A stretch of DNA of 34,919 nt, taken from the NCBI GenBank assembly GCA_012837285.1, contig DURJ01000002.1:1-34919 (forward strand). The letters are read 5' to 3'. The stretch comes from Bacillota bacterium. GTDB lineage: Bacteria > Bacillota > DTU030 > DUMP01. This document shows, in pieces, positions 14,917 through 27,818 of this stretch; within the stretch, counting starts at the first letter, position 1, and the number at the start of each line of letters is the position of its first letter. The notes under the pieces are model-generated. The model was not told the origin of the DNA. It saw nothing but the letters and a program-made list of their open reading frames with translations, and did not search any database. The position numbers and the translations under genes are program-made.

Positions 14917-16449
14917 ATGGTTCAGCGGGAGCTAGTTTTGATCATAGATTTTGGCGGCAATGAAGCGCAGCTATTGGCTCAACGGGTGCGGGAGCTGAAA
15001 GTGTATGCTGAGCTGGTACCGCCTACTGTAACGATGGCTAGTGTGCAGGCCCGTAAGCCTAAAGGGATAATATTTAGCGGTGGGCCGACTTCGGTTTTGG
15101 CTCCTGGCGCGCCGACCATAGACCGGGATATATTTGAGCTGGGTATCCCGGTGCTTTGTATTGGGTACGGGCATCAACTCATGGCCCAAGTTTTAGGCGG
15201 GACAGTTTTTGAACAACCGGTAGGTGAGGACCGGTGCCAGCAGTTGACAGTGGACCGCCCAGAAGGGGTCCTGACCGGCTGGGAACGGGAGGAACGGGGT
15301 TGGTTTCGCTCCGGGGCGCGAGTGGTAGCACCGCCGCCGGGCTTTTCGGTGTTGGCCCACACCGCCGCTCTACCGGTGGCTGTGATGGCGGATCTTGAGC
15401 GGCACTTGTACGGAGTGGGGTTTCAGCCTCAGGTGGCCGCTACGGCCAAAGGTGTGCTGCTGCTGCGCGCGTTCCTGTTTGATATTTGTCGTCTAAGCGG
15501 CCAGTGGAACATGGGAACCTTTGCCGAAGAAGCCATGGCCGCGATTCGCACCCAGGTGGGGACGGGGCAGGTAATATGCGGTTTAAGTGGTGGGGTCGAT
15601 TCGTCGGTGGCTGCCACTTTGGTCCACCGGGCAGTAGGCGATCAGCTTACCAGTATTTTTGTCGATCATGGATTGATGCGTCAAGACGAGCCGGAACAGG
15701 TAATGTCTACTTTTCGGCAGCGCGGGTTCAAACTGATTTACGTGGATGCGCGTCAGCGTTTTCTAACCCGGCTGGCCCAGGTCTCCGACCCGGAGAAAAA
15801 GCGCAAAATAATCGGGGAAGAATTCATTCGCGTGTTCGAACAAGAAGCGGAGCGCCTGGGCCAAGTAGATTTTTTGGTCCAGGGAACGGTTTATCCCGAT
15901 GTGATCGAAAGCGGCAGCGGTTCGGCTGTAAGGGTGAAGTCCCACCACAATGTGGGTGGGCTGCCGGAAAAGATGGATCTTAAGCTAATCGAACCTTTGC
16001 GCTTTTTGTTCAAGGACGAGGTGCGCCGGCTGGGCGAGGAGCTGGGGTTGCCGGCAGAGATGGTCTGGCGTCATCCTTTCCCCGGTCCTGGTTTAGCAGT
16101 CCGCGTATTAGGGGAAGTGACAGCGGAAAAACTGGCTATTTTACGGGCAGCCGATGCCATTGTTATCGAGGAGATCAAAGCGGCTGGGTTGTACCGAAAA
16201 CTGTGGCAAGTTTTTGCCGTATTGCCTGATATCAAAAGCGTGGGTGTAACCCACGGTGCACGCACCTATGCTTATACCGTCGGTATTCGGGCGGTAGAGA
16301 GCACCGATGCCATGACAGCCCAGTGGGCCGAGCTGCCGTACGAAGTGCTGGATAAAATAGCGCAGCGCCTAACTAGTGAAGTGCCTCATGTTAACCGGGT
16401 GGTGTATGATATTACTTCCAAGCCACCGGCCACTATTGAGTGGGAATAA
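14917..16449 (+). CDS. guaA: GMP synthase with degenerate glutaminase domain
   Basis: GuaA aminates XMP to GMP. The 510-residue protein has the normal two-part layout. The synthetase half looks intact: PP-loop [11 protein letters not shown] at about 221-231, [19 protein letters not shown], the [11 protein letters not shown] motif, and the C-terminal dimerisation domain ending KPPATIEWE. The N-terminal glutamine amidotransferase half (about 1-195) is clearly homologous ([16 protein letters not shown]) but lacks the catalytic triad. The usual GICYG is CIGYG, with Gly83 in place of the nucleophile Cys, and the usual FHPEV is FQPQV, with Gln170 and Gln172 in place of His and Glu. The DFGSQY motif is DFGGNE. 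It should therefore depend on ammonia, or on ammonia from another protein. ATG 14917 follows GGGAAGG. The purine cluster follows downstream. Confidence 0.93.
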
Positions 16450-16487
16450 AAAAGCTCCCCTGAGGTGGGAATACTGACCCACAAATC

Positions 16488-16648
16488 AGTACCGTCTTGA
16501 GAATCCTTCGCCCCCTAGGTAAGACATTGGCTGTCTGTAGTACCTTTGGACGGTGATTCAGGTATAGCCACCATGAAAAGGACTTAGTTTACCCGCGTAG
16601 TGAACAGCAACAGCAGCCAAGTGGTAAGAGGATACTTTAACATTGGCT
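16488..16648 (+). ncRNA. ssrS: 6S-RNA-like long hairpin between guaA and purE
   Basis: The gap folds into one long irregular hairpin. The closing stem pairs about 16497-16507 (TTGAGA-ATCCT) with 16629-16640 (AGGAT then TTTAA), extendable through CCG/TGG. Next comes an asymmetric bubble (19 bases on the 5' side, 8 on the 3' side), then an 11-bp stem TTGGCTG-CTGT/ACAGCAGCCAA (16527-16538 with 16610-16620), then an apical arm CCTTT/AAAGG and GGTG/CACC. Size (about 160-190 nt), a central bubble flanked by long stems, and a strong terminator just 3' match 6S RNA, the sigma-A RNA polymerase mimic. The 5' end and promoter are unclear. Assigned from structure only. Confidence 0.5.
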
Positions 16649-16655
16649 ATGACTA

Positions 16656-16697
16656 GGCGAACGTTATTACGGAAAACGGTGATAATGTTCGCTTTTT
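16656..16697 (+). terminator. strong intrinsic terminator before the pur promoter
   Basis: A long stem beginning GCGAAC (from 16657) and ending GTTCGC (to 16692), about 16 bp with two or three mismatches around a GAAAA loop, followed by TTTTT. It would end the 6S-like RNA and any read-through from guaA four bases before the -35 of the next promoter. Confidence 0.9.
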
Positions 16698-16700
16698 GTA

Positions 16701-16729
16701 TTGACAAAGGCAGGTAGCCTTGCTATCAT
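16701..16729 (+). promoter_or_regulatory. sigma-A promoter of the purine operon
   Basis: A perfect TTGACA (16701-16706), 17-base spacer and TATCAT (16724-16729). Transcription would start near 16736, giving a 290-base leader before purE. Confidence 0.85.
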
Positions 16730-16735
16730 GGACAT

Positions 16736-16812
16736 GGAATGAAATAGCAAAATAGGGATACCTCAGGCAGTGCGGAATCGGCGGCTGTGTAGAGCCGGCG
16801 TAACCTAAATAT
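16736..16812 (+). other. structured segment upstream of the riboswitch
   Basis: The first 75 bases of the leader can form a separate element: an outer stem TAGG..TAC with GTA..CCTA (from about 16753 to 16807) enclosing a hairpin CGGCT/AGCCG with a 6-base loop. It does not look like the guanine aptamer known in tandem with PRPP riboswitches. It could be an additional aptamer or a passive spacer. Confidence 0.35.
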
Positions 16813-16815
16813 GCG

Positions 16816-16925
16816 TGAGGGAAAGTGTGCCTAGGGTTCCGCGCACATACGGTCTGGACCAAGTGGCACAGGCGCTGTAGCGCTACACCGAAGGGGGAAA
16901 AGCCCAGGCGGGGAGGTTTCACTCA
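16816..16925 (+). ncRNA. ykkC subtype-2 riboswitch, probably PRPP-sensing
   Basis: The ykkC core is present: CCTAGGGTTCC (16830-16840), GGTCTGGACCAAGTGGCAC with GTG(T)GCC as partner, a variable hairpin GGCGCTGTAGCGCT, CACCGAAGGG, then AAAAGCCC and GGGGAGG. P1 pairs TGAG-g-GAAA (16816-16824) with TTTC-a-CTCA (16917-16925). The GGACCAAG form in place of the GUCCGAGAG of guanidine-I members, together with the purE operon downstream, points to the PRPP class (2b) rather than guanidine or ppGpp. P1's 3' strand overlaps the arm of the following terminator, so ligand binding should switch the operon on. Confidence 0.85.
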
Positions 16926-16960
16926 GCAAAAGAAACCACCCGGCTGGCTGTTTTATTTTA
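16901..16960 (+). terminator. riboswitch-controlled terminator before purE
   Basis: Core stem GGTTTC/GAAACC (16915-16920 with 16932-16937), extended by GGG/CCC and, with bulges, AGCC/GGCT, followed by TTTTATTTTA. The 5' arm contains the bases that form the aptamer's P1, so terminator and bound aptamer exclude each other. Confidence 0.8.
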
Positions 16961-17026: not shown

Positions 17027-17524
17027 ATGGACAAAGAGCCTCAAGTGGGCATCGTTTTAGGCAGTGCGTCCGATGGTGCTTTAGGTCAGGAAATTACAAA
17101 AGTCTTGACTTCTTTTGAGGTGTCGTTTGAGCTGGTGGTGGCTTCGGCCCACCGTACACCCCAAAAGGCTTCTTTGTACGCTAAGGAAGCAGCCGGACGG
17201 GGGATAAAGGTACTTATTGCTGTTGCCGGTTTGGCGGCCCATCTGCCGGGAGTACTGGCGGCGGATACCGTACTTCCTGTTATTGGGGTGCCGGCGGCAG
17301 GAGGGACTTTGGGCGGGCTGGATGCCCTGCTGTCCATAGCCCAGATGCCGGGAGGCATTCCCGTAGCTTCTGTTGGTATCAACAATGGTAAGAACGCGGC
17401 CCTGCTGGCAGTGGCTATTTTGGCTCTCTCCAGCCAAAGCCTGGCTCAGCGGTTACAGGCGTATCGCCAGGAACTGGCAGCCCAGGTAGAGGTGGGGGAG
17501 CAGGAAGTATTGCGGGAATTGTGA
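17027..17524 (+). CDS. purE: PurE, N5-carboxyaminoimidazole ribonucleotide mutase
   Basis: PurE rearranges N5-CAIR to CAIR in purine synthesis. The 165-residue product has the class I pattern: GSASD near the start, SAHRTPQ at about 42-48, AGLAAHLPGVLA at about 69-80, GVPAAGGTLGG and QMPGGIPVASVGI. ATG 17027 follows GAGGGAGG. Class I PurE normally needs PurK to make N5-CAIR; purK is not in this cluster, so it is elsewhere or a bypass applies. First gene after the riboswitch, with a 354-base gap to purL. Confidence 0.95.
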   Translation: MDKEPQVGIVLGSASDGALGQEITKVLTSFEVSFELVVASAHRTPQKASLYAKEAAGRGIKVLIAVAGLAAHLPGVLAADTVLPVIGVPAAGGTLGGLDALLSIAQMPGGIPVASVGINNGKNAALLAVAILALSSQSLAQRLQAYRQELAAQVEVGEQEVLREL

Positions 17525-17878
17525 TCTTAGGTCAAATGTTTCCCACCATAATGCTGTTCATTTGCTTACCGGTCTTTTGCTCGCTTTTGTGAAGTCCACA
17601 AAGCAGGATAAGGTCAGTGAGTAAGTGAAGGGGCTAGGTGTCGTGTAGTTGTCTGGTTGTATGGCCATCCTGAAAGCGGGGCTAAGCCCTCGATCAAAAG
17701 AGCGCAGACCAGTGAGGACAGGGCGGAGCGGCTGTTTCCCACCTTACAGGGTGTACAGGGAGCGAAGCGAGTTGCCCGAAGCCCCCGAGCGAGCCAAGCT
17801 CCGTCGTTCTGGGGGGCGCCGCGGAGCGTAAGGATAACCTGTAACCGGATCAACCATGAAAAAAAGGGGGTTTTTCTG
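17525..17878 (+). other. purE-purL intergenic region, partly structured, no gene
   Basis: No credible reading frame: the open frame leading into purL has no family match before 17879. The first half is featureless apart from TGTTTCCCACC at 17537, repeated at 17733. The second half is GC-rich and self-complementary: TTACAGG (17744-17750) pairs with CCTGTAA (17838-17844), enclosing GCCCCC/GGGGGGC (17781-17786 with 17811-17817) and GAGC/GCTC. In many Firmicutes purK, purC, purS and purQ lie at this point; no remnant of them was recognised. It may be a mobile repeat or an RNA element ahead of purL. Confidence 0.5.
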
Positions 17879-20053
17879 ATGGTGGATTACAAAAGCATGG
17901 GGCTTTCCGACGAAGAATATTCAAAGATCGTAAAGCTCATGGGGCGGGAGCCCAATGAGACCGAGACCGGAATCTTTGCTGTCATGTGGTCCGAACACTG
18001 CGGCTATAAGAATTCACGTCCGCTGCTCAAACTATTTCCCACCGAGGGTAAATATGTCCTTCAGGGGCCGGGCGAAAATGCCGGAGTAGTGGATATTGGC
18101 GACGGACAAGCAGCGGTATTTAAGATCGAGAGCCACAATCACCCGTCGGCAGTGGAACCGTATGAAGGAGCGGCCACCGGCGTGGGCGGCATTGTGCGTG
18201 ACGTGTTTGCTATGGGTGCCCGTCCGATAGCGTCTATTAATTCTTTGCGCTTTGGCGAGCTTAACGATAATCACACCCGCTGGATATTTGATGGGGTGGT
18301 GGACGGCATTGCCGGCTATGGTAATACCCTGGGCGTGCCTACAGTAGCCGGGGAAGTGTATTTTAGCCCTTCCTACCAGGGTAACCCACTGGTAAACGCC
18401 ATGGTGGTGGGACTTTTAACCGGTGATCCGGCTAAAGGGTTAGCAGCCGGCGTAGGTAACAAGGTGCTCCTGGCCGGTGGCAAAACAGGGCGCGACGGTG
18501 TTCATGGGGCCACTTTTGCTTCCGGGGAGTTGGACGAAAAGTTGGAGGAACGGCGAGAGGCTATTCCGGCCGGTAACCCGGAGCTGGAAAAACGCCTCAT
18601 CGAGGCTTGTCTGGAAGCACTGGCTGCCGGGCACGTGGTGGGTATGCAGGATCTGGGTGCAGCCGGCCTTACTTCTTCCAGTGCCGAGATGGCGTCACGG
18701 GCCGGCACGGGCATGGAGATGGATCTTTCATTGGTTCCGGTCAAAGAAGAAGGCCTTACCCCGTACGAAATGATGCTGTCGGAATCGCAAGAACGCATGC
18801 TGCTGGTAGTTGAGCAGGGTTACGAAGAAGAAGTGCGGCAAATTTTCACCCGCTGGGATATCGAATCGGTCTATATTGGACAAGTAACAGACGATGGCCT
18901 CCTTAGAGTCTACCATGACGGGGAGATTGCCGCCGAAGTGCCGACAAAATATCTCACCGAAGAAGTGCCCACGTACGTACGCCAAGGTCAGATGCCCGGT
19001 TATCTCAAGGAGGAACAGTCTTTCGATTGGAGCACTCTGCCGGAGCCCGCTGACTACAACGAAGCTTTGCTTAAGCTGATGTCGTCAGGGAATATCTGTA
19101 GCCGTAAATATATCTGGGAAAAGTTCGATATTGAGGCCCAGGGCAACACAGTAGTGGGACCGGGTTCGGATGCTGCGGTGCTTCAAGTGGAAGGAACGAA
19201 CAAGGGCTTGGCCATAACCGTGGATGGCAACGGACGATATACGTACCTAGATCCCTACACCGGCGGTATGATCGCTGTAGCCGAAGCAGCCCGTAACTTG
19301 GCTGTTACCGGAGCCGAACCCTTGGGATTGACCGATGGCCTCAACTTTGGCAACCCGGAAAAGCCGGAGGTATATTGGCAGCTACAAAAGGCCATTGAGG
19401 GCATGGCAGCCGCTTGCCGGGCGCTGGAGATTCCAGTGGTAGGCGGAAATGTGAGCCTATACAACGAGATCGAAGGCCAGGCCATTTTCCCCACCCCTAT
19501 AGTCGGTATGGTGGGCTTGCTGCCGGATGTGTCCAAACACGCGCGGCAGGGATTTCGAGCGGCCGGGGATCTAATTGTGCTGCTGGGCAGTACAGAGGAT
19601 GAACTAGGTGGCAGCGAGTATCTGTATGCGCTGCACAATCTGGAAACGGGACGTCCGCCGCACCTGGATTTGGACCGCGAACTTCGGATTCAGAGCTTAT
19701 GCCGCCAGGCTATAGCCCGGGGACTGTTGGCTTCGGCCCACGATGTTTCCGACGGCGGGCTGGTGGTAGCTATAGCCGAAAGCTGCCTGACTGGGAAAAA
19801 CGGTCCCCTAGGTGCCACAGTCAAGGTAGACCTTGGCAGCTTGCGCCGAGACAGTGCCTACTTCGGTGAGACTCAATCCAGGGTTGTGGTGTCAGTAGCA
19901 CCGGATAAACTTACGGCCCTGGAGAACCTCACCGCTGACTTTGGCGTACCCTATACTGTTTTGGGTAAAACCGGTGGCGATCACTTTACAGTGGACGATG
20001 TTATCTCGCTGCCGTTAACAAAACTGCAGCAGGCTTGGGAGGGGACATTTTAA
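17879..20053 (+). CDS. purL: PurL, FGAM synthase large subunit (small, PurQ-dependent type)
   Basis: PurL makes formylglycinamidine ribonucleotide from FGAR, ATP and glutamine-derived ammonia. The 724-residue length is that of small PurL, which lacks its own glutaminase and works with PurQ and PurS. Two AIR-synthase-like repeats are visible: WSEHCGYK with the catalytic His at about 39-46 and [21 protein letters not shown] at about 83-103, then GPGSDAAVL and GGNVSLYNE in the second half. The long open frame upstream (to 17657) is not part of the gene: ATG 17879 with GGGGG upstream fits the family N-terminus. No purQ or purS lies in the window. TAATG overlap with purF. Confidence 0.96.
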
Positions 20054-21438
20054 TGCCGCCACTTAAAGTTAGGGAAAAGTGCGGCGTGTTCGGTATTTAT
20101 GCTCCGGGCGAAGACGTGGGGCGGTTAACTTACATGGGGCTGTTTGCTCTGCAGCATCGCGGGCAAGAAAGTGCCGGTATAGCTATCACGGACGGTCGAA
20201 CCATTGTATTGGAGAAAGACCGAGGCTTGGTGGCCGAAGTGTTCACTCCCGAACGGCAGCAACGTCTCCATGGCAAGTTAGCTATCGGCCATGTGTTGTA
20301 CGGCAATACCGATACCCAAAGTAACGTGGAAAATGCTGAACCTCTGGCGGTAATGTCCCGCCGGGGTTCCTTGGCTTTGGCCCATAACGGAGAAATTACC
20401 AATGCCGATGCCCTAAGAGCTGAACTCAGTCGTCGTGGCTATCTGTTTCGTACCGACAGTGATATCGAAGTTATCGCCAGTCTCGTTGCTCAAGCGGAAG
20501 ATCCGGACTTAACCTCGGCCCTTATATCTACCCTCAGAAAACTAAACGGTGCTTATGCCTTGGTGGTGCTAACTCCCGATCGTATTATGGGTATTCGCGA
20601 CCCGCACGGCATTCGCCCGCTGTCTTTGGGCCGGTTCGACGGCGGTTATGTCTTGGCCTCAGAAACGTGTGCCTTCGATACCGTTGGTGCCCAGTTTATC
20701 CGACCGGTAGAGCCGGGTGAATTGGTGACCATAGGACCGGACGGTATTTCGTCCCAGCGTTTTGCTCCCGGTGAAAAAGCGGTCTGCACCTTTGAGTATA
20801 TCTATTTTGCCCGCCCCGACAGTCTGATCGAAGGGATCGGTGTTCATGGCGCCCGCCGGCGGGCCGGCCGGATTTTGGCCTCTGAACACCCGGCCAAGGC
20901 CGATATGGTTATTTCTGTACCCGACTCGGGCACATCGGCAGCTTTGGGTTATGCGGAGGCAGCCGGAATTCCCCTGGATGCAGGGTTGATCAAGAACCGC
21001 TATGTGGGGCGGACGTTCATAAAACCGAGCCAGAAGGACCGGGAATTTGCTGTGCAGCTAAAGCTCAGTCCTTTGCAGGAGGTATTGGCCGGAAAGAGTG
21101 TGGTAATGGTAGACGATTCCATTGTCCGCGGAACCACCTGTGGGCGGTTGGTCCGAATGCTGAAGAAGGCCGGGGTGAAGAACGTGCATGTACGAGTAGC
21201 CTCGCCACCGGTAATCAGCCCCTGTTACTACGGTATTGACACCCCTTACCGCCAAGAGTTGGTGGCCGCGCAGTTGACGATTGAGGCTATTCGGACTAAC
21301 ATCGGTGCTGACTCGTTGGGTTTCCTCAGTACAGAGGGGCTAAAAAACGCTATCGGACTTCCGGATGATCCTTATTGCATGGCCTGTTTCAGCGGTCATT
21401 ACCCCGCCGGTCGACCGGACAAGGAAGAGGAGGAATAA
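20053..21438 (+). CDS. purF: PurF, amidophosphoribosyltransferase with altered glutamine site
   Basis: First committed enzyme of purine synthesis (PRPP plus amide nitrogen to phosphoribosylamine), 461 residues. A nine-residue propeptide precedes Cys10 (REKCGVFG), the Ntn nucleophile. Arg36 in [12 protein letters not shown] and the TDSD Asp are retained. The glutamine-binding VRY-x-T-x-G motif is changed: HVLYGNTDT, with Leu82 replacing the essential Arg (E. coli Arg73) and Asn and Asp at the Thr and Gly positions; HNGN reads HNGE. The PRTase half is intact ([13 protein letters not shown]) and all four putative 4Fe-4S Cys remain (VCTFEY, SPCYYG, YCMACF). It starts at ATG 20053, eight bases after GGGAGGGG. 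Confidence 0.95.
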
Positions 21439-21442
21439 CAGG

Positions 21443-22495
21443 ATGCCGACAGAAAGCTGGAGCTATGCCAAGGCCGGTGTAGACATCAATGCCGGCAACG
21501 AAGCCGTACGACGAATCAAACCCTTGGTACAGGGGACCATGAGGCCGGAGGTACTGTCCGGTATCGGCGGCTTTGCCGGCTTGTTTGCCTTGGCCGAGGG
21601 AAAATACCGCCGGCCGGTGCTAGTGTCAGGTTGTGACGGTGTGGGTACCAAGCTAAAAGTTGCCTTTGCTGTAGATAAGCACGACACGGTCGGCATAGAT
21701 TGTGTGGCTATGTGTGTAAACGACATCTTAGTTCTAGGGGCCGAACCTCTGTTTTTCCTGGATTACCTAGCGGTAGGGCGCTTAATGCCGGAACAAGTGG
21801 AGCAGGTAGTACGCGGTGTGGCCGAAGGTTGCCGGCAAGCCGGCTGTGCGCTGCTCGGTGGAGAGACGGCGGAGATGCCGGGGTTTTATCCAGCGGGCGA
21901 ATACGATCTGGCCGGGTTTGCTGTCGGCGTAGTGGAAAAAGACAGCATCATCGATGGCCGCACCGTGGTTCCCGGAGATGTTATCTTAGGACTCGGTTCC
22001 AACGGACTGCACAGCAATGGGTTTTCACTGGTGCGCAAGGTGCTGTTAGAAGAATCCCAGTTGAATCTGGCTTGTTCTGCAGATGACTTCAGACACTCGT
22101 TGGGGGAAGAGCTGCTGGAGCCCACCCGGATCTATGTACCATCTATTCTTGGTTTATTACCGCAGGTTTCTGTGAAGGGCATGGCTCATATCACCGGCGG
22201 CGGGTTAGTGGAAAATGTGGTCCGAGTGCTGCCGGCAGGGACCAAAGCGGTGATTAAGGCCGGCAGTTGGCCAGTACCACCTATATTTAACCTTATTCGT
22301 GAACAGGGTCAGGTGGCAGAGGCGGAGATGGCGCGCACGTTTAACTTAGGAGTTGGGTTCGTGGTTATTGTTGCTGCTGCTGATGCCGCTCGGGCGACCG
22401 AGATCCTGGCCGGTACAGGAGAAAAAGTCTATACCGTAGGCAGGGTGACAGCCGGTGATCCGGCGGTAGAGATAGGAGGGAGCATTTTCTCATGA
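21443..22495 (+). CDS. purM: PurM, AIR synthetase
   Basis: Closes the imidazole ring: FGAM plus ATP to AIR. The 350-residue product begins [15 protein letters not shown] and carries [42 protein letters not shown] and [17 protein letters not shown], all standard. The open frame extends back to 21365 inside purF, but AAGAGGAGG at 21424-21433 fits ATG 21443. Its TGA overlaps the purN ATG (ATGA). Confidence 0.97.
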
Positions 22496-23127
22496 AATCG
22501 GGCTTAGCAGTGTTAGCTTCCGGGCGCGGCACGAACCTTCAGGCCATCATCGATGCCTGGGAGCACGGTACTCTACCGGTAGACATTGTCGGTGTGCTCA
22601 GCAACAATCCAACAGCCCAAGCTCTTGATCGAGCCCGATCCTGTGGCATTCCCACAGCGGTGCTTCGGCTTAAAGACTACCCCGATCGGCGCTCCTATGG
22701 GGAAGCGTTAGTTAAGCAGCTACAAGATTGGCAGACGGACCTAGTGGCCTTGGCCGGCTTTATGCTGCTGCTCGACCCAGTGGTTATTGAAGCGTTTCCT
22801 CATCGAATCCTCAATATCCATCCGGCCCTGCTACCGTCGTTTAAGGGCATTAACGCCCAGCAGCAGGCGCTGGACTATGGGGTACGTGTCACCGGTTGCA
22901 CTGTTCATCTTGTGGATGAGGACATGGATACCGGGCCGATAATATTACAAGCAGCAGTCCCGGTACTGCCAAACGATACCGAAGAAACTCTGGCGGCGCG
23001 CATTCTGACCGAAGAACATCGCCTTTATCCCGAAGCCATTCGGTTGCTGGCCGCCGGCAGGATAAAGGTTTGTGGCCGCAAAGTACGGATTTTGGCTAAA
23101 GGAGAAGATAACATTGATCAAAATTAA
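22492..23127 (+). CDS. purN: PurN, GAR formyltransferase
   Basis: Transfers the formyl group of 10-formyl-THF to GAR. The 211-residue protein has [13 protein letters not shown] at about 8-20, the catalytic [12 protein letters not shown] (Asn, His) at about 105-116, and [10 protein letters not shown] with the catalytic Asp. It overlaps purM by ATGA and purH by 14 bases. Its cofactor can be made by the fhs and folD genes downstream. Confidence 0.97.
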
Positions 23128-24646
23128 CAGGGCTTTGTTGTCGGTATCGGACAAGAGCGGGCTAATTGAGTTGGCCCAAGGGTTGGTTCAAGCTGGGGTC
23201 GAGATCATATCTTCAGGAGGAACAGCCAAGGCGTTGGCCGAGGCCAGACTACCGGTGCGGCGGGTAGAAGAGATTACCGGCTTTCCCGAAATCTTGGACG
23301 GTCGGGTCAAGACCTTACATCCGGCGATTCATGCTGGGATACTGGCCCGACGCGACGTGCCGGAACATATGGCCAAGTTACAGGAACTGGGCCTTGCTCC
23401 CATAGACCTGGTGGTGGTTAACCTGTATCCCTTTGCCGCTACCATTTCCCGGCCCGATGTAACGCTGGCCGAGGCGGTGGAAAACATCGATATCGGTGGA
23501 CCGACGCTGATCCGAGCTGCAGCCAAGAACCATCAAGGTGTAGCAGTGGTGGTTAATCCGGACCGCTATGGTGACATATTGGCCGAACTTAAGGCCGAAG
23601 GCGGTATTAGCGCTGAGACGGCTTATGGGCTGGCGGCGGAAGCTTTTGCCCATACCGCTCAGTATGACACTGTAATTGCCGGCTACTTAGGAAAACAAGA
23701 ACAGGCTTTTCCGGACAACCTGCATTTGGCTTACATTAAGGCCCTGGATCTTCGCTACGGCGAGAATCCTCATCAAAAAGCAGCGCTGTATGTGGAGCCG
23801 GGCAAAAGTTGCGGGATCCCCGGGGCCAAGAAACTGCACGGCAAGGATCTATCCTTTAACAATATTAACGATGCTAACGGTGCTTGGGAACTGGTACAAC
23901 AGTTTACGGCTCCTTGTGCCGTCGGGGTCAAACATAGCAATCCTTGTGGTGTAGGGGTGGCCGCTGATCTTTTAACTGCTTGGCAAAAAGCATACGATGG
24001 TGACCCGGTATCTATTTTCGGTGGGATTGTGGCTTTTAACCAGACGGTAACAGCCGAGGTGGTGGCAGAACTCAACAAGATTTTCTTAGAAGTGGTCATT
24101 GCTCCTGACTACGCGCCCGAGGCCTTGGACCTTCTTAAAACAAAGAAAAACCGCATTGTGCTACAGGCCGTACCGGGCGGCCAAGGTCGCGAGCGGGATC
24201 TGAAAAAGGTTCGCGGCGGTCTGTTGGCACAAGAACTAGACCAACAAGATTACGCTCCAGACGATTTGAAAGTGGTCACCAAACGGACCCCGACGGCTAA
24301 AGAAATGAAGGATCTGAAGTTTGCCTGGAAAGTGGTTAAGTATGTAAAATCCAACGCTATTGTCTTGGCTAAGGACGAGCAAATCATCGGAGTGGGAGCG
24401 GGCCAGATGAACCGTGTGGGAGCAGTGGATATTTCGGCTCGTCAAGCGGGGCCGAAAGCCCAGGGCGCTGTCATGGCCTCCGATGCCTTTTTCCCCATGC
24501 CCGATTCAGTGGCGAGAGCGGCTGAGGCCGGCGTTACAGCTATTATTCAGCCAGGCGGATCGGTGCGCGACGAAGATTCTATCCGAGCGGCAGACGAAGC
24601 CGGTATAGCCATGGTGTTTACCGGGATGAGGCATTTTAGGCACTAG
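23114..24646 (+). CDS. purH: PurH, AICAR transformylase/IMP cyclohydrolase
   Basis: Performs the last two steps to IMP. The 510-residue product has an MGS-like IMP cyclohydrolase domain ([49 protein letters not shown]) followed by the AICAR formyltransferase domain ([24 protein letters not shown] with the catalytic Lys-His, [24 protein letters not shown]). The open frame extends to 23072; TTG 23114 is chosen because it follows GGAGA by eight bases and matches the family N-terminus. It overlaps purN. Confidence 0.97.
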
Positions 24647-24701
24647 AGTGGACCTAGTTGGCGTGGGAACAGGCTAGTTGATACGAGGAGGGTGTTACGC
24701 T

Positions 24702-25973
24702 GTGAAAATTCTGATAGTGGGCGGTGGCGGGCGCGAACATACGCTGGCCTGGAAACTGGCGCAGAGCCCACGGGTGAAGCGGGCATTTGTAGCGCCGGGT
24801 AATGCCGGTACACGTCAGGTAGCAGAGAATGTGCCCATTGTAGCTACAGATATAGAAGGGCTAGCCAATTGGGCCGAAGAGCAAAGGATTGATCTTACAG
24901 TGGTAGGGCCGGAGGCACCGCTTACCGCCGGGTTGGTAGATGCTTTCACAGCCCGAGGGCTGAAGGCGTTTGGCCCTACGCGCGAAGCGGCAGCTATCGA
25001 GGGGAGCAAGGTTTTCAGTAAGAACCTGATGCAAAAGTATAACATTCCCACTGCAGCCTATGCTGTGTTTACGGAACCGGACAAGGCTAAAGACTACGTA
25101 CGGCAAAAAGAGCTGCCGGTGGTACTTAAGGCCGATGGACTGGCGGCCGGAAAAGGTGTGGTGATAGCCCAGAACCAAGACGAGGCCATGAAAGCGGTGG
25201 AAGATATATTGGAGGCCGGTGTCTTTGGCGCTGCCGGCAATCGGTTGGTGGTGGAGGAATTTCTCCAGGGGGAAGAAGTAACAGTTCTGGCTTTTTGTGA
25301 CGGGGAGCATGTTCTACCCCTGGCGTCTTCACAGGATCATAAGCGCATTTTCGATGGAGATAAGGGGCCGAACACCGGCGGGATGGGTGCCTATTCGCCG
25401 GTGCCAGCCTTAACGTCGGCCCTGGCTGCGGAAGTGGAAAAGACGATTCTAAAACCCACCGTCCAAGCCATGGCCGCCGAGGGCCACCCCTTTAGCGGAA
25501 TATTGTATGCCGGACTCATGCTCACGGCAGACGGGCCAAAGGTATTGGAATTTAACGCTCGCTTTGGTGATCCTGAAGCCCAGGCGGTGATACCGCGTCT
25601 TTGTACGGATCTGGTCGGTGTGATCGAAGCGGCCCTACAGGGTCAGCTGGATAAAGTACAGCTTAGTTGGCGTCCGGAAGCGGCTCTCACAGTGGTGTTG
25701 GCATCGGCGGGTTATCCGGGCCCATATGAAACCGGAGGCCCAATTTCAGGTTTAGAAGAAGCGGCGAAACTGCAGGGCATCTATGTTTTTCATGCCGGAA
25801 CGGCTGTTGCCGGGGGTAAGGTAGTCACAGCCGGCGGCCGGGTGTTGGCTGTTACCGCTTTGGGAGCGGACCTTGGTGTGGCCCAACAGCGAGCCTATCA
25901 GGCGGTGGAGCAGATCAAGTTCGAAGGGTGCCATTTCCGCCGGGACATTGGATGGCGAGCTCTTAGCCGATAA
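24702..25973 (+). CDS. purD: PurD, phosphoribosylamine-glycine ligase
   Basis: Joins glycine to phosphoribosylamine with ATP to form GAR. The 423-residue ATP-grasp enzyme shows VGGGGREHTLAWKLA at the start, VGPEAPLTAGLVD, SKVFSKNLMQKYNIPTA, KADGLAAGKGVV, EEFLQGEEVTVLAFCDG, GPNTGGMGAYSPVP and EFNARFGDPEAQAV. GTG 24702 follows ACGAGGAGGG by nine bases. Last pur gene of the cluster; a 177-base gap precedes fhs. Confidence 0.97.
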   Translation: MKILIVGGGGREHTLAWKLAQSPRVKRAFVAPGNAGTRQVAENVPIVATDIEGLANWAEEQRIDLTVVGPEAPLTAGLVDAFTARGLKAFGPTREAAAIEGSKVFSKNLMQKYNIPTAAYAVFTEPDKAKDYVRQKELPVVLKADGLAAGKGVVIAQNQDEAMKAVEDILEAGVFGAAGNRLVVEEFLQGEEVTVLAFCDGEHVLPLASSQDHKRIFDGDKGPNTGGMGAYSPVPALTSALAAEVEKTILKPTVQAMAAEGHPFSGILYAGLMLTADGPKVLEFNARFGDPEAQAVIPRLCTDLVGVIEAALQGQLDKVQLSWRPEAALTVVLASAGYPGPYETGGPISGLEEAAKLQGIYVFHAGTAVAGGKVVTAGGRVLAVTALGADLGVAQQRAYQAVEQIKFEGCHFRRDIGWRALSR

Positions 25974-26150
25974 GACAAGAAATTGAACGCCCAGGGCAGA
26001 AGAATGCAGAGGAAACGAGATAACTAACAACGAATTCAAATGTGAGGATCTACAAGGTATTTTGACTACCAGTAGCGAATGTAAAGACTATATGCCGAAT
26101 GATGCTAGAGTTACTAGTGTCGGAGAACTACGAGAGAGGTGTTTGCAAAC
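25974..26150 (+). other. purD-fhs gap, possible promoter
   Basis: No reading frame and no terminator hairpin were found. TTGACT at about 26061-26066 could be a -35, but nothing close to TATAAT lies at the right distance (ACTATA comes 19 bases later). Read-through from the pur operon is therefore as likely as a separate promoter. Confidence 0.3.
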
Positions 26151-27818
26151 ATGCTGTCGGACATTGAGATTGCCCAAGGGGCAAAACTGAGGCCCATTAC
26201 GGAGGTGGCATCCTCCCTCGGTCTCGGGGAGGAAGATCTGGAGTTGTATGGGCGCTATAAGGCTAAGATAAGCCCAGCGGTTTGGGAGCGGGTTAAGGAT
26301 CAACCGGACGGAAAACTGGTTCTGGTCACGGCTATCAACCCGACCCCTGCTGGAGAAGGAAAGACCACTGTTTCAGTTGGCTTAGCCGATGCTTTGAGCC
26401 AACTGGGTAAGAAGATAATGGTAGCGCTCAGAGAGCCTTCGCTTGGTCCCAGTTTTGGTCTTAAGGGCGGTGCCGCCGGGGGTGGATATGCGCAAGTAGT
26501 ACCGATGGAAGATATCAACTTACACTTCACCGGCGACATTCATGCAGTTACCACCGCTCATAATCTGCTGTCGGCCATTATAGACAACCACTTACAACAG
26601 GGTAACGAACTGGGTATTGATCCTCGACGCATTACTTGGAAGCGAGTCATGGACATGAACGAGCGAGCGCTGAGAAAGGTGGTTGTCGGACTGGGCGGCC
26701 GGCCCCATGGGGTGCCTCGAGAAGACAGCTTCGACATATCAGTGGCGTCGGAAGTTATGGCTAGTTTGTGCCTGGCTGATAGCTTAACCGAGCTCAAAGA
26801 ACGGCTGGCCCGCATCGTTATCGGCTATACCTATGACGCTAAACCGGTGACAGTAAGGGATCTTAACGCCCAAGGTGCCATGACCATCTTACTTAAAGAT
26901 GCACTAAAGCCAAATCTGGTTCAGACTCTGGGACAAGTACCGGCGTTTGTGCACGGCGGCCCCTTTGCCAATATTGCTCACGGTTGCAATAGTATTCAGG
27001 CCACTCGTCTGGGGCTGAAACTGGCCGACTACATGGTAACAGAAGCCGGTTTCGGTGCTGATTTAGGGGCCGAGAAGTTCTTGGATATCAAATGTAGGGT
27101 AGCTGGCCTTAAGCCCAACGCAGTGGTAATCGTGGCCAGTATTCGCGCCTTAAAGGCCCATGGCGGTGTAGCTAAGACCGAGCTCAAGAAAGAGAATGTA
27201 CCGGCTTTAGAAACGGGTTTTGCCAACTTAGAAAAACAAGTGGAAAACATCCGAGGCTTTGGTTTGCCAGCGGTGGTGGCTATCAACCGCTTCCCCACCG
27301 ATACCAAAGCTGAGATCGAGAAGCTGAGCGAGCTTTGCCGTCGGTTTGGCGTTCCTTTTGCCTTGACAGATGTGTGGGCCCAAGGCGGTGCCGGCGGTAT
27401 CGAACTGGCCCAGGAAGTGATGGCAGCAGCCGAGCGGCCGTCGAACTTTACCTTTATGTATGATCGGGCCCAATCACCGAAAGAGAAGATTGCTGCCATT
27501 GCCACCAAAGTTTACGGTGCGGCCAAAGTAGAGTACACAGCCGAAGCTGAGCGGGATCTGAAGGCTATTCATGGTCAGGGTTACGATGACTTGCTGATTT
27601 GTATAGCTAAAACCCAGTATTCCTTAACTGATGATCCAACATTGGTCGGCCGACCCAGAGATTTTACCATTATCGTGCGGGAAGTCCGCCTCTCGGCAGG
27701 CGCTGGGTTCTTAGTGGCTGTTACCGGCCAGATCATGACAATGCCCGGTTTGCCCAAGAGGCCGGCCGCCTTGAGTATGGATATCGACGCCCAGGGCCGG
27801 ATTACGGGATTGTTTTAA
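26151..27818 (+). CDS. fhs: formate-tetrahydrofolate ligase
   Basis: Makes 10-formyl-THF from formate, ATP and THF: the donor for PurN and PurH, and a step of the Wood-Ljungdahl methyl branch in acetogens. The 555-residue product begins [14 protein letters not shown] and has the nucleotide motif [19 protein letters not shown] at about 65-83, then [32 protein letters not shown] and [14 protein letters not shown]. The length is standard. ATG 26151 is preferred over GTG 26139 because it matches the family N-terminus, with AGAGAGG 11 bases upstream. Followed 13 bases later by folD. Confidence 0.97.

Follow-up and report, generated by a model that had tools for sequence, protein, structure and literature searches.

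Riboswitches of the PRPP class have the ykkC fold and, as crystal structures revealed, an add-on helix P0 that is missing from guanidine-I (PMC6031431). Guanidine-I aptamers carry A at residue 49, where subtypes 2a/2b have a pyrimidine, and residue 96 is G in more than 97% of PRPP aptamers and non-G in ppGpp aptamers (PMC6031431). ON switching was demonstrated experimentally for other PRPP riboswitches (PMC5912903). In a survey of tandem riboswitches, guanine is the only PRPP partner listed, with 192 cases, and tandems with orphan candidates were seen and left unreported (PMC9481103).

The leader in front of purE in the window (the whole stretch of 34,919 nt that was analysed) resembles the singlet PRPP riboswitch (PMC5912903, PMC6031431) in its core, G96, pyrimidine-49, P0, terminator overlapping P3 and P0, purine operon, and predicted ON switching, but differs from it by a conserved upstream element overlapping P0. 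As in the guanine–PRPP tandem (IMPLY gate; PMC5912903, PMC9481103), the element abuts the aptamer, the 3' strand of its P1 overlaps the P0 5' strand, and one terminator is shared. Unlike in that tandem, neither sequence nor fold nor Rfam score identifies the element as a guanine aptamer. The PRPP riboswitch itself is a further example of a described class. The leader as a whole is, with good probability, a two-part transcription attenuator composed of a PRPP riboswitch and an upstream OFF-directed element. Its parts are evident in sequence, conservation, and mutually exclusive pairing, and we read the element as opposing the PRPP aptamer.

According to the gene calls in the window, guaA (14917-16449) is followed by the leader and then by purE-purL-purF-purM-purN-purH-purD-fhs. 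The intergenic DNA between guaA and the upstream terminator (16450-16650, some 200 bases) looks structured; only chance-level Rfam matches were obtained for it, and no second copy was found in the own genome or in 40 relatives. The following features were annotated:

16655-16700, + strand, terminator-like hairpin separating guaA from the leader (16-pair stem and T tract)
16701-16729, + strand, promoter TTGACA-17-TATCAT with extended -10 (sigma-70 type, 11/12 consensus matches)
16761-16820, + strand, unclassified upstream element (homologues at purE in five other genomes, without Rfam match, identity above that of saturated synonymous sites)
16816-16824, + strand, P0 5' strand, named P1 in the earlier note (pairing and covariation)
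16820-16912, + strand, ykkC core (P1, P2, P3) of the PRPP aptamer (RF00442, 53.4 bits)
16864, + strand, U at the equivalent of position 49, which is A in guanidine-I (RF00442 alignment and the residue rule of PMC6031431)
16901-16959, + strand, intrinsic terminator with arms 16901-16920 and 16932-16949 and U tract 16951-16959 (fold of 16896-16958, -25.3 kcal/mol)
16907, + strand, G at the position-96 equivalent, as in PRPP and not ppGpp aptamers (sequence GCCCAGGCGGGGAGG and the rule of PMC6031431)
16917-16925, + strand, P0 3' strand (pairing and covariation)
17027-17524, + strand, purE, which opens the controlled operon (PF00731, 3e-56)
17657-27818, + strand, purL, purF, purM, purN, purH, purD, and fhs (Pfam matches)

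Transcription probably starts at about 16736, and the complete leader folds more strongly than shuffled sequences (z -4.2). The span of 16736-16960 given in the earlier note begins near this likely start; the separate element at 16761-16820 and its predicted opposition to the switch were not mentioned there.

The helix 16816-16824/16917-16925 claimed in that note is real, with one mismatch, but its published name is P0, not P1. It has eight pairs (16816-16819 with 16925-16922, and 16821-16824 with 16920-16917) around the mismatch G16820 x A16921. When 46 distinct PRPP leaders were compared, 88% of P0 cells were paired, with slid registers reaching at most 54%, and 23 double-change cells were counted versus 9.4 in shuffled data (0 of 500 shuffles reached 23). 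The terminator, with the U tract UUUUAUUUU, overlaps by its 5' arm both P0 at 16917-16920 and P3 at 16902-16913; the claim that terminator arm and helix share bases is thus borne out by the four positions 16917-16920. Because the 3' strands of P0 and P3 sit in the terminator 5' arm, the ON-switch reading is sound, and ligand-stabilised P0 and P3 should block the terminator, i.e., antitermination is predicted. Together with the P0 covariation, this arrangement argues for the ON geometry ahead of purE that had been proposed, and the polarity of the window riboswitch is presumably ON.

The upstream element is a 60-nt imperfect hairpin with P1a (CCUCA/UGAGG), P1b (GCA/UGC), internal loops, a GG/CC helix, and a CGGC/GCCG hairpin. 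Only chance-level matches were found when it was compared with 4227 Rfam models. It adjoins the PRPP aptamer in the slot that is held by the guanine aptamer in guanine–PRPP tandems. The 3' strand of P1a, UGAGG at 16816-16820, doubles as part of the P0 5' strand; P1a and P0 are therefore mutually exclusive. In folding of the growing transcript, the element forms first, and the P0 5' strand pairs with upstream sequence with a probability of 1.00, versus 0.47 when the upstream sequence was shuffled (none of 30 shuffles reached this value). In the MFE structure, 16753-16760 additionally pair with the aptamer; this pairing was rejected, as by eye it is not retained in homologues.

In the proposed mechanism, the intrinsic terminator would capture both the P3 and the P0 3' strand when PRPP is absent, and transcription would end before purE. 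With PRPP bound, P0 and P3 would close, the terminator would be blocked, and the purine operon would be ON. The element would fold first, keep the P0 5' strand in its own P1, and push the switch toward OFF; it is the holding of this strand that would make it OFF-directed. It would act in the slot and geometry of the guanine aptamer of guanine–PRPP IMPLY gates.

Six genomes, from two genera of one family, have the element at purE. Covariance models of the element matched purE leaders of G004 and G005 from the same genus and G002 and G003 from the sister genus, and in all four the element is followed by a PRPP aptamer. The sixth occurrence, in the single-contig genome G001 of the sister genus, was recognized by an unfiltered search (22 bits, E 0.001). 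A scan of 399 genomes of the phylum with model R2 returned only the five others, and as its search filters missed G001, absence elsewhere is tentative. Model R3, used on 41 relatives, gave nothing above chance in 35 other relatives, nor did an unfiltered search of 40 purE upstream regions and 21 PRPP leaders. No occurrence of the element was found before other purine genes. An exact-pattern search of genome contigs yielded the four known MAGs and four matches with no PRPP aptamer nearby. Hairpins of the singlet PRPP leaders L114-L118 and L125-L132 were rejected as homologues, as they scored at chance level with R3 (best L116, 10.5 bits).

Comparison across genera gives 65-72% identity for the element versus 21-38% at fourfold-degenerate sites of purE (Fisher p 2e-4 or lower in three genome pairs), but gapped alignment inflates identity, with shuffles averaging 57%. 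Comparison of scores is for this reason safer, and in all genome pairs tested the alignment score of the element was higher than that of any of 500 shuffles. Judged from these alignments, the element has stayed conserved across a divergence at which synonymous sites have become saturated. Its pairs are almost all invariant across homologues and the sequences are few, so the fold is nearly without covariation support. Across genera, 7-9 of the 18 internal-loop positions are identical, and the hairpin loop has not been retained; some unpaired bases are invariant (columns 23, 54, 58, 60, and 61 of alignment A4). In G004, the element (L006, 1436-1510) begins a few bases past the guaA stop codon. 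There is no room for a promoter between them, and transcripts would therefore reach the switch either by read-through from guaA or from a promoter inside guaA.

The purE leader of G001 contains the element and lacks the PRPP aptamer, and RF00442 matches in this genome are limited to three other leaders (L008, L011, and L014). P1 of the element, lengthened by AAGC/GCUU, runs into the U-rich UUUGAUUUU, and purE follows. The inner hairpin is less conserved and the U tract is broken by GA. In this leader (L137, 1350-1445), P1 has apparently been remade as a terminator-like stem, as though a deletion had removed the PRPP aptamer together with most of its terminator. The arrangement fits an OFF role of the element, with or without the PRPP aptamer. 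As the element is kept here without P0 as a competitor, G001 speaks for an independent regulatory role. Another leader of this genome, L008 (1501-1597, minus strand), has a ykkC-type RNA resembling the ppGpp subtype, and the start of its downstream gene resembles, by eye, a glutamate-synthase-type amidotransferase.

How the element works can be read in several ways. Given most weight, though tentatively, is that it represents a ligand-free competitor hairpin that sequesters the P0 5' strand and merely tunes the PRPP threshold, as simple hairpins pair with the same strand in PRPP leaders without a guanine aptamer (L070, L097, L126, L129, and L131). The helix sequence of such a hairpin could drift freely, yet it is near-invariant across saturated divergence, and the element persists in G001, where no P0 competes.

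Next in order, it is possible, although doubtful, that the element is an aptamer in its own right, of a kind not yet described, which would bind a purine-pathway metabolite (X), act as an OFF switch, and make the leader a new two-ligand X–PRPP logic gate. The slot and the overlap with P0 are as in the guanine aptamer, the helix bases and some unpaired bases are invariant, the element is retained before purE of G001 in the absence of the PRPP aptamer, and it belongs to no Rfam family; against this stand internal loops of such limited identity between genera, no spread seen past one family, and no finding before other purine genes. The region 16761-16820 might then, with equal reserve, be the founding example of a rare new aptamer class repressing purE, alone in G001 with P1 serving as the terminator, and in tandem in five genomes, with a first input other than guanine. 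An earlier unpublished sighting of the element is possible, because orphan-candidate tandems were left unreported in PMC9481103.

Sequence-constrained helices and loops would suit recognition by a protein too, and the element as a binding site of a regulatory protein is an unlikely explanation, but one to be considered. Somewhat more improbable still is a decayed guanine aptamer. Its position would be the same, and leader L069 looks like such decay, but no Purine match appears up to E 10, though RF00167 finds the permease leaders of sister species. The element is moreover one long hairpin without UUUCUACC or UAUGG, and it is conserved rather than decaying. A guanine aptamer upstream of the PRPP aptamer was likewise rejected, as RF00167 gave no match in 16736-16822 up to that E value. 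The NCS2-permease leader of the same genome (L001) is a standard guanine–PRPP tandem with a true guanine aptamer in the slot, and its copies in sister species, L009 and L013, match Rfam Purine with scores of 83.9 and 38.9 bits.

Several other PRPP leaders were inspected. Many of those without a guanine aptamer (L070, L097, L125-L132, L091, and L092) have a simple hairpin whose 3' strand is the P0 5' strand, e.g., CUCGU...ACGAG, and L047, L051, L052, L120, and L121 seem to begin right at the PRPP aptamer. Upstream of 1501 in L069, a decayed-looking guanine aptamer precedes the PRPP aptamer and has no Rfam Purine match. In L109 and L111 (about 318-418), a Purine aptamer is in tandem with the PRPP aptamer before purE, with Rfam Purine scores of 64-66 bits. 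Their joining segments are altered, as AGCACUACC replaces GUCUCUACC and GACUGCG replaces GACUACG, and a changed base specificity is possible.

The aptamer at 16820-16912 has the ykkC fold, with the core motifs CUAGGG, GGUCNGG, and GGGNNAAAAGCCC of P1-P3. RF00442 (Guanidine-I) matched it with E 1e-8 at a relaxed threshold in a 601-base search, its 53.4 bits falling short of the gathering score of 63. No Rfam family reached its gathering threshold anywhere in the window, and there was no separate PRPP model among the Rfam matches. Position 96 was assigned to G16907 by counting back from A103-G104-G105. Among 79 distinct ykkC-like leaders gathered, the window leader clusters with purE and NCS2-permease leaders, and the 3' core CCCAGGCGGGG is common to it and to the guanine–PRPP tandem of the same genome. 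The ppGpp-type leaders L010-L012 and L014 from related genomes are without G96 and differ at the diagnostic sites. The pyrimidine U16864, G16907, and the P0 helix assign the aptamer to subtype 2b (PRPP) under the published residue rules. The claim of a ykkC subtype-2 riboswitch before purE agrees with the RF00442 match, residues 49 and 96, P0, and the full purine operon downstream. The residue rules, P0, and the operon also favour PRPP as the ligand, as had been suggested. PRPP is likely in view of the diagnostic residues, the grouping with purE and NCS2-permease leaders, and the shared core; another phosphorylated ligand within subtype 2 could take its place.

That the aptamer binds guanidine or ppGpp is very improbable: Guanidine-I is the sole Rfam match, but the score is below gathering, U stands at the A46 equivalent (position 46/49), P0 is present, and the context is purine genes, while ppGpp (ykkC 2a) was rejected by G16907, which the related ppGpp-type leaders lack, and by a purine operon in place of amino-acid genes.

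The element outweighs the PRPP switch in importance, as it is a conserved RNA without an Rfam family in the guanine slot, found also without the PRPP aptamer. In the literature, guanine alone was found as a partner of PRPP aptamers. Should the element bind a purine-pathway compound, both the riboswitch class and the logic gate would be new; should it act purely as a competitor hairpin, it would show how the PRPP threshold is tuned without a second ligand.
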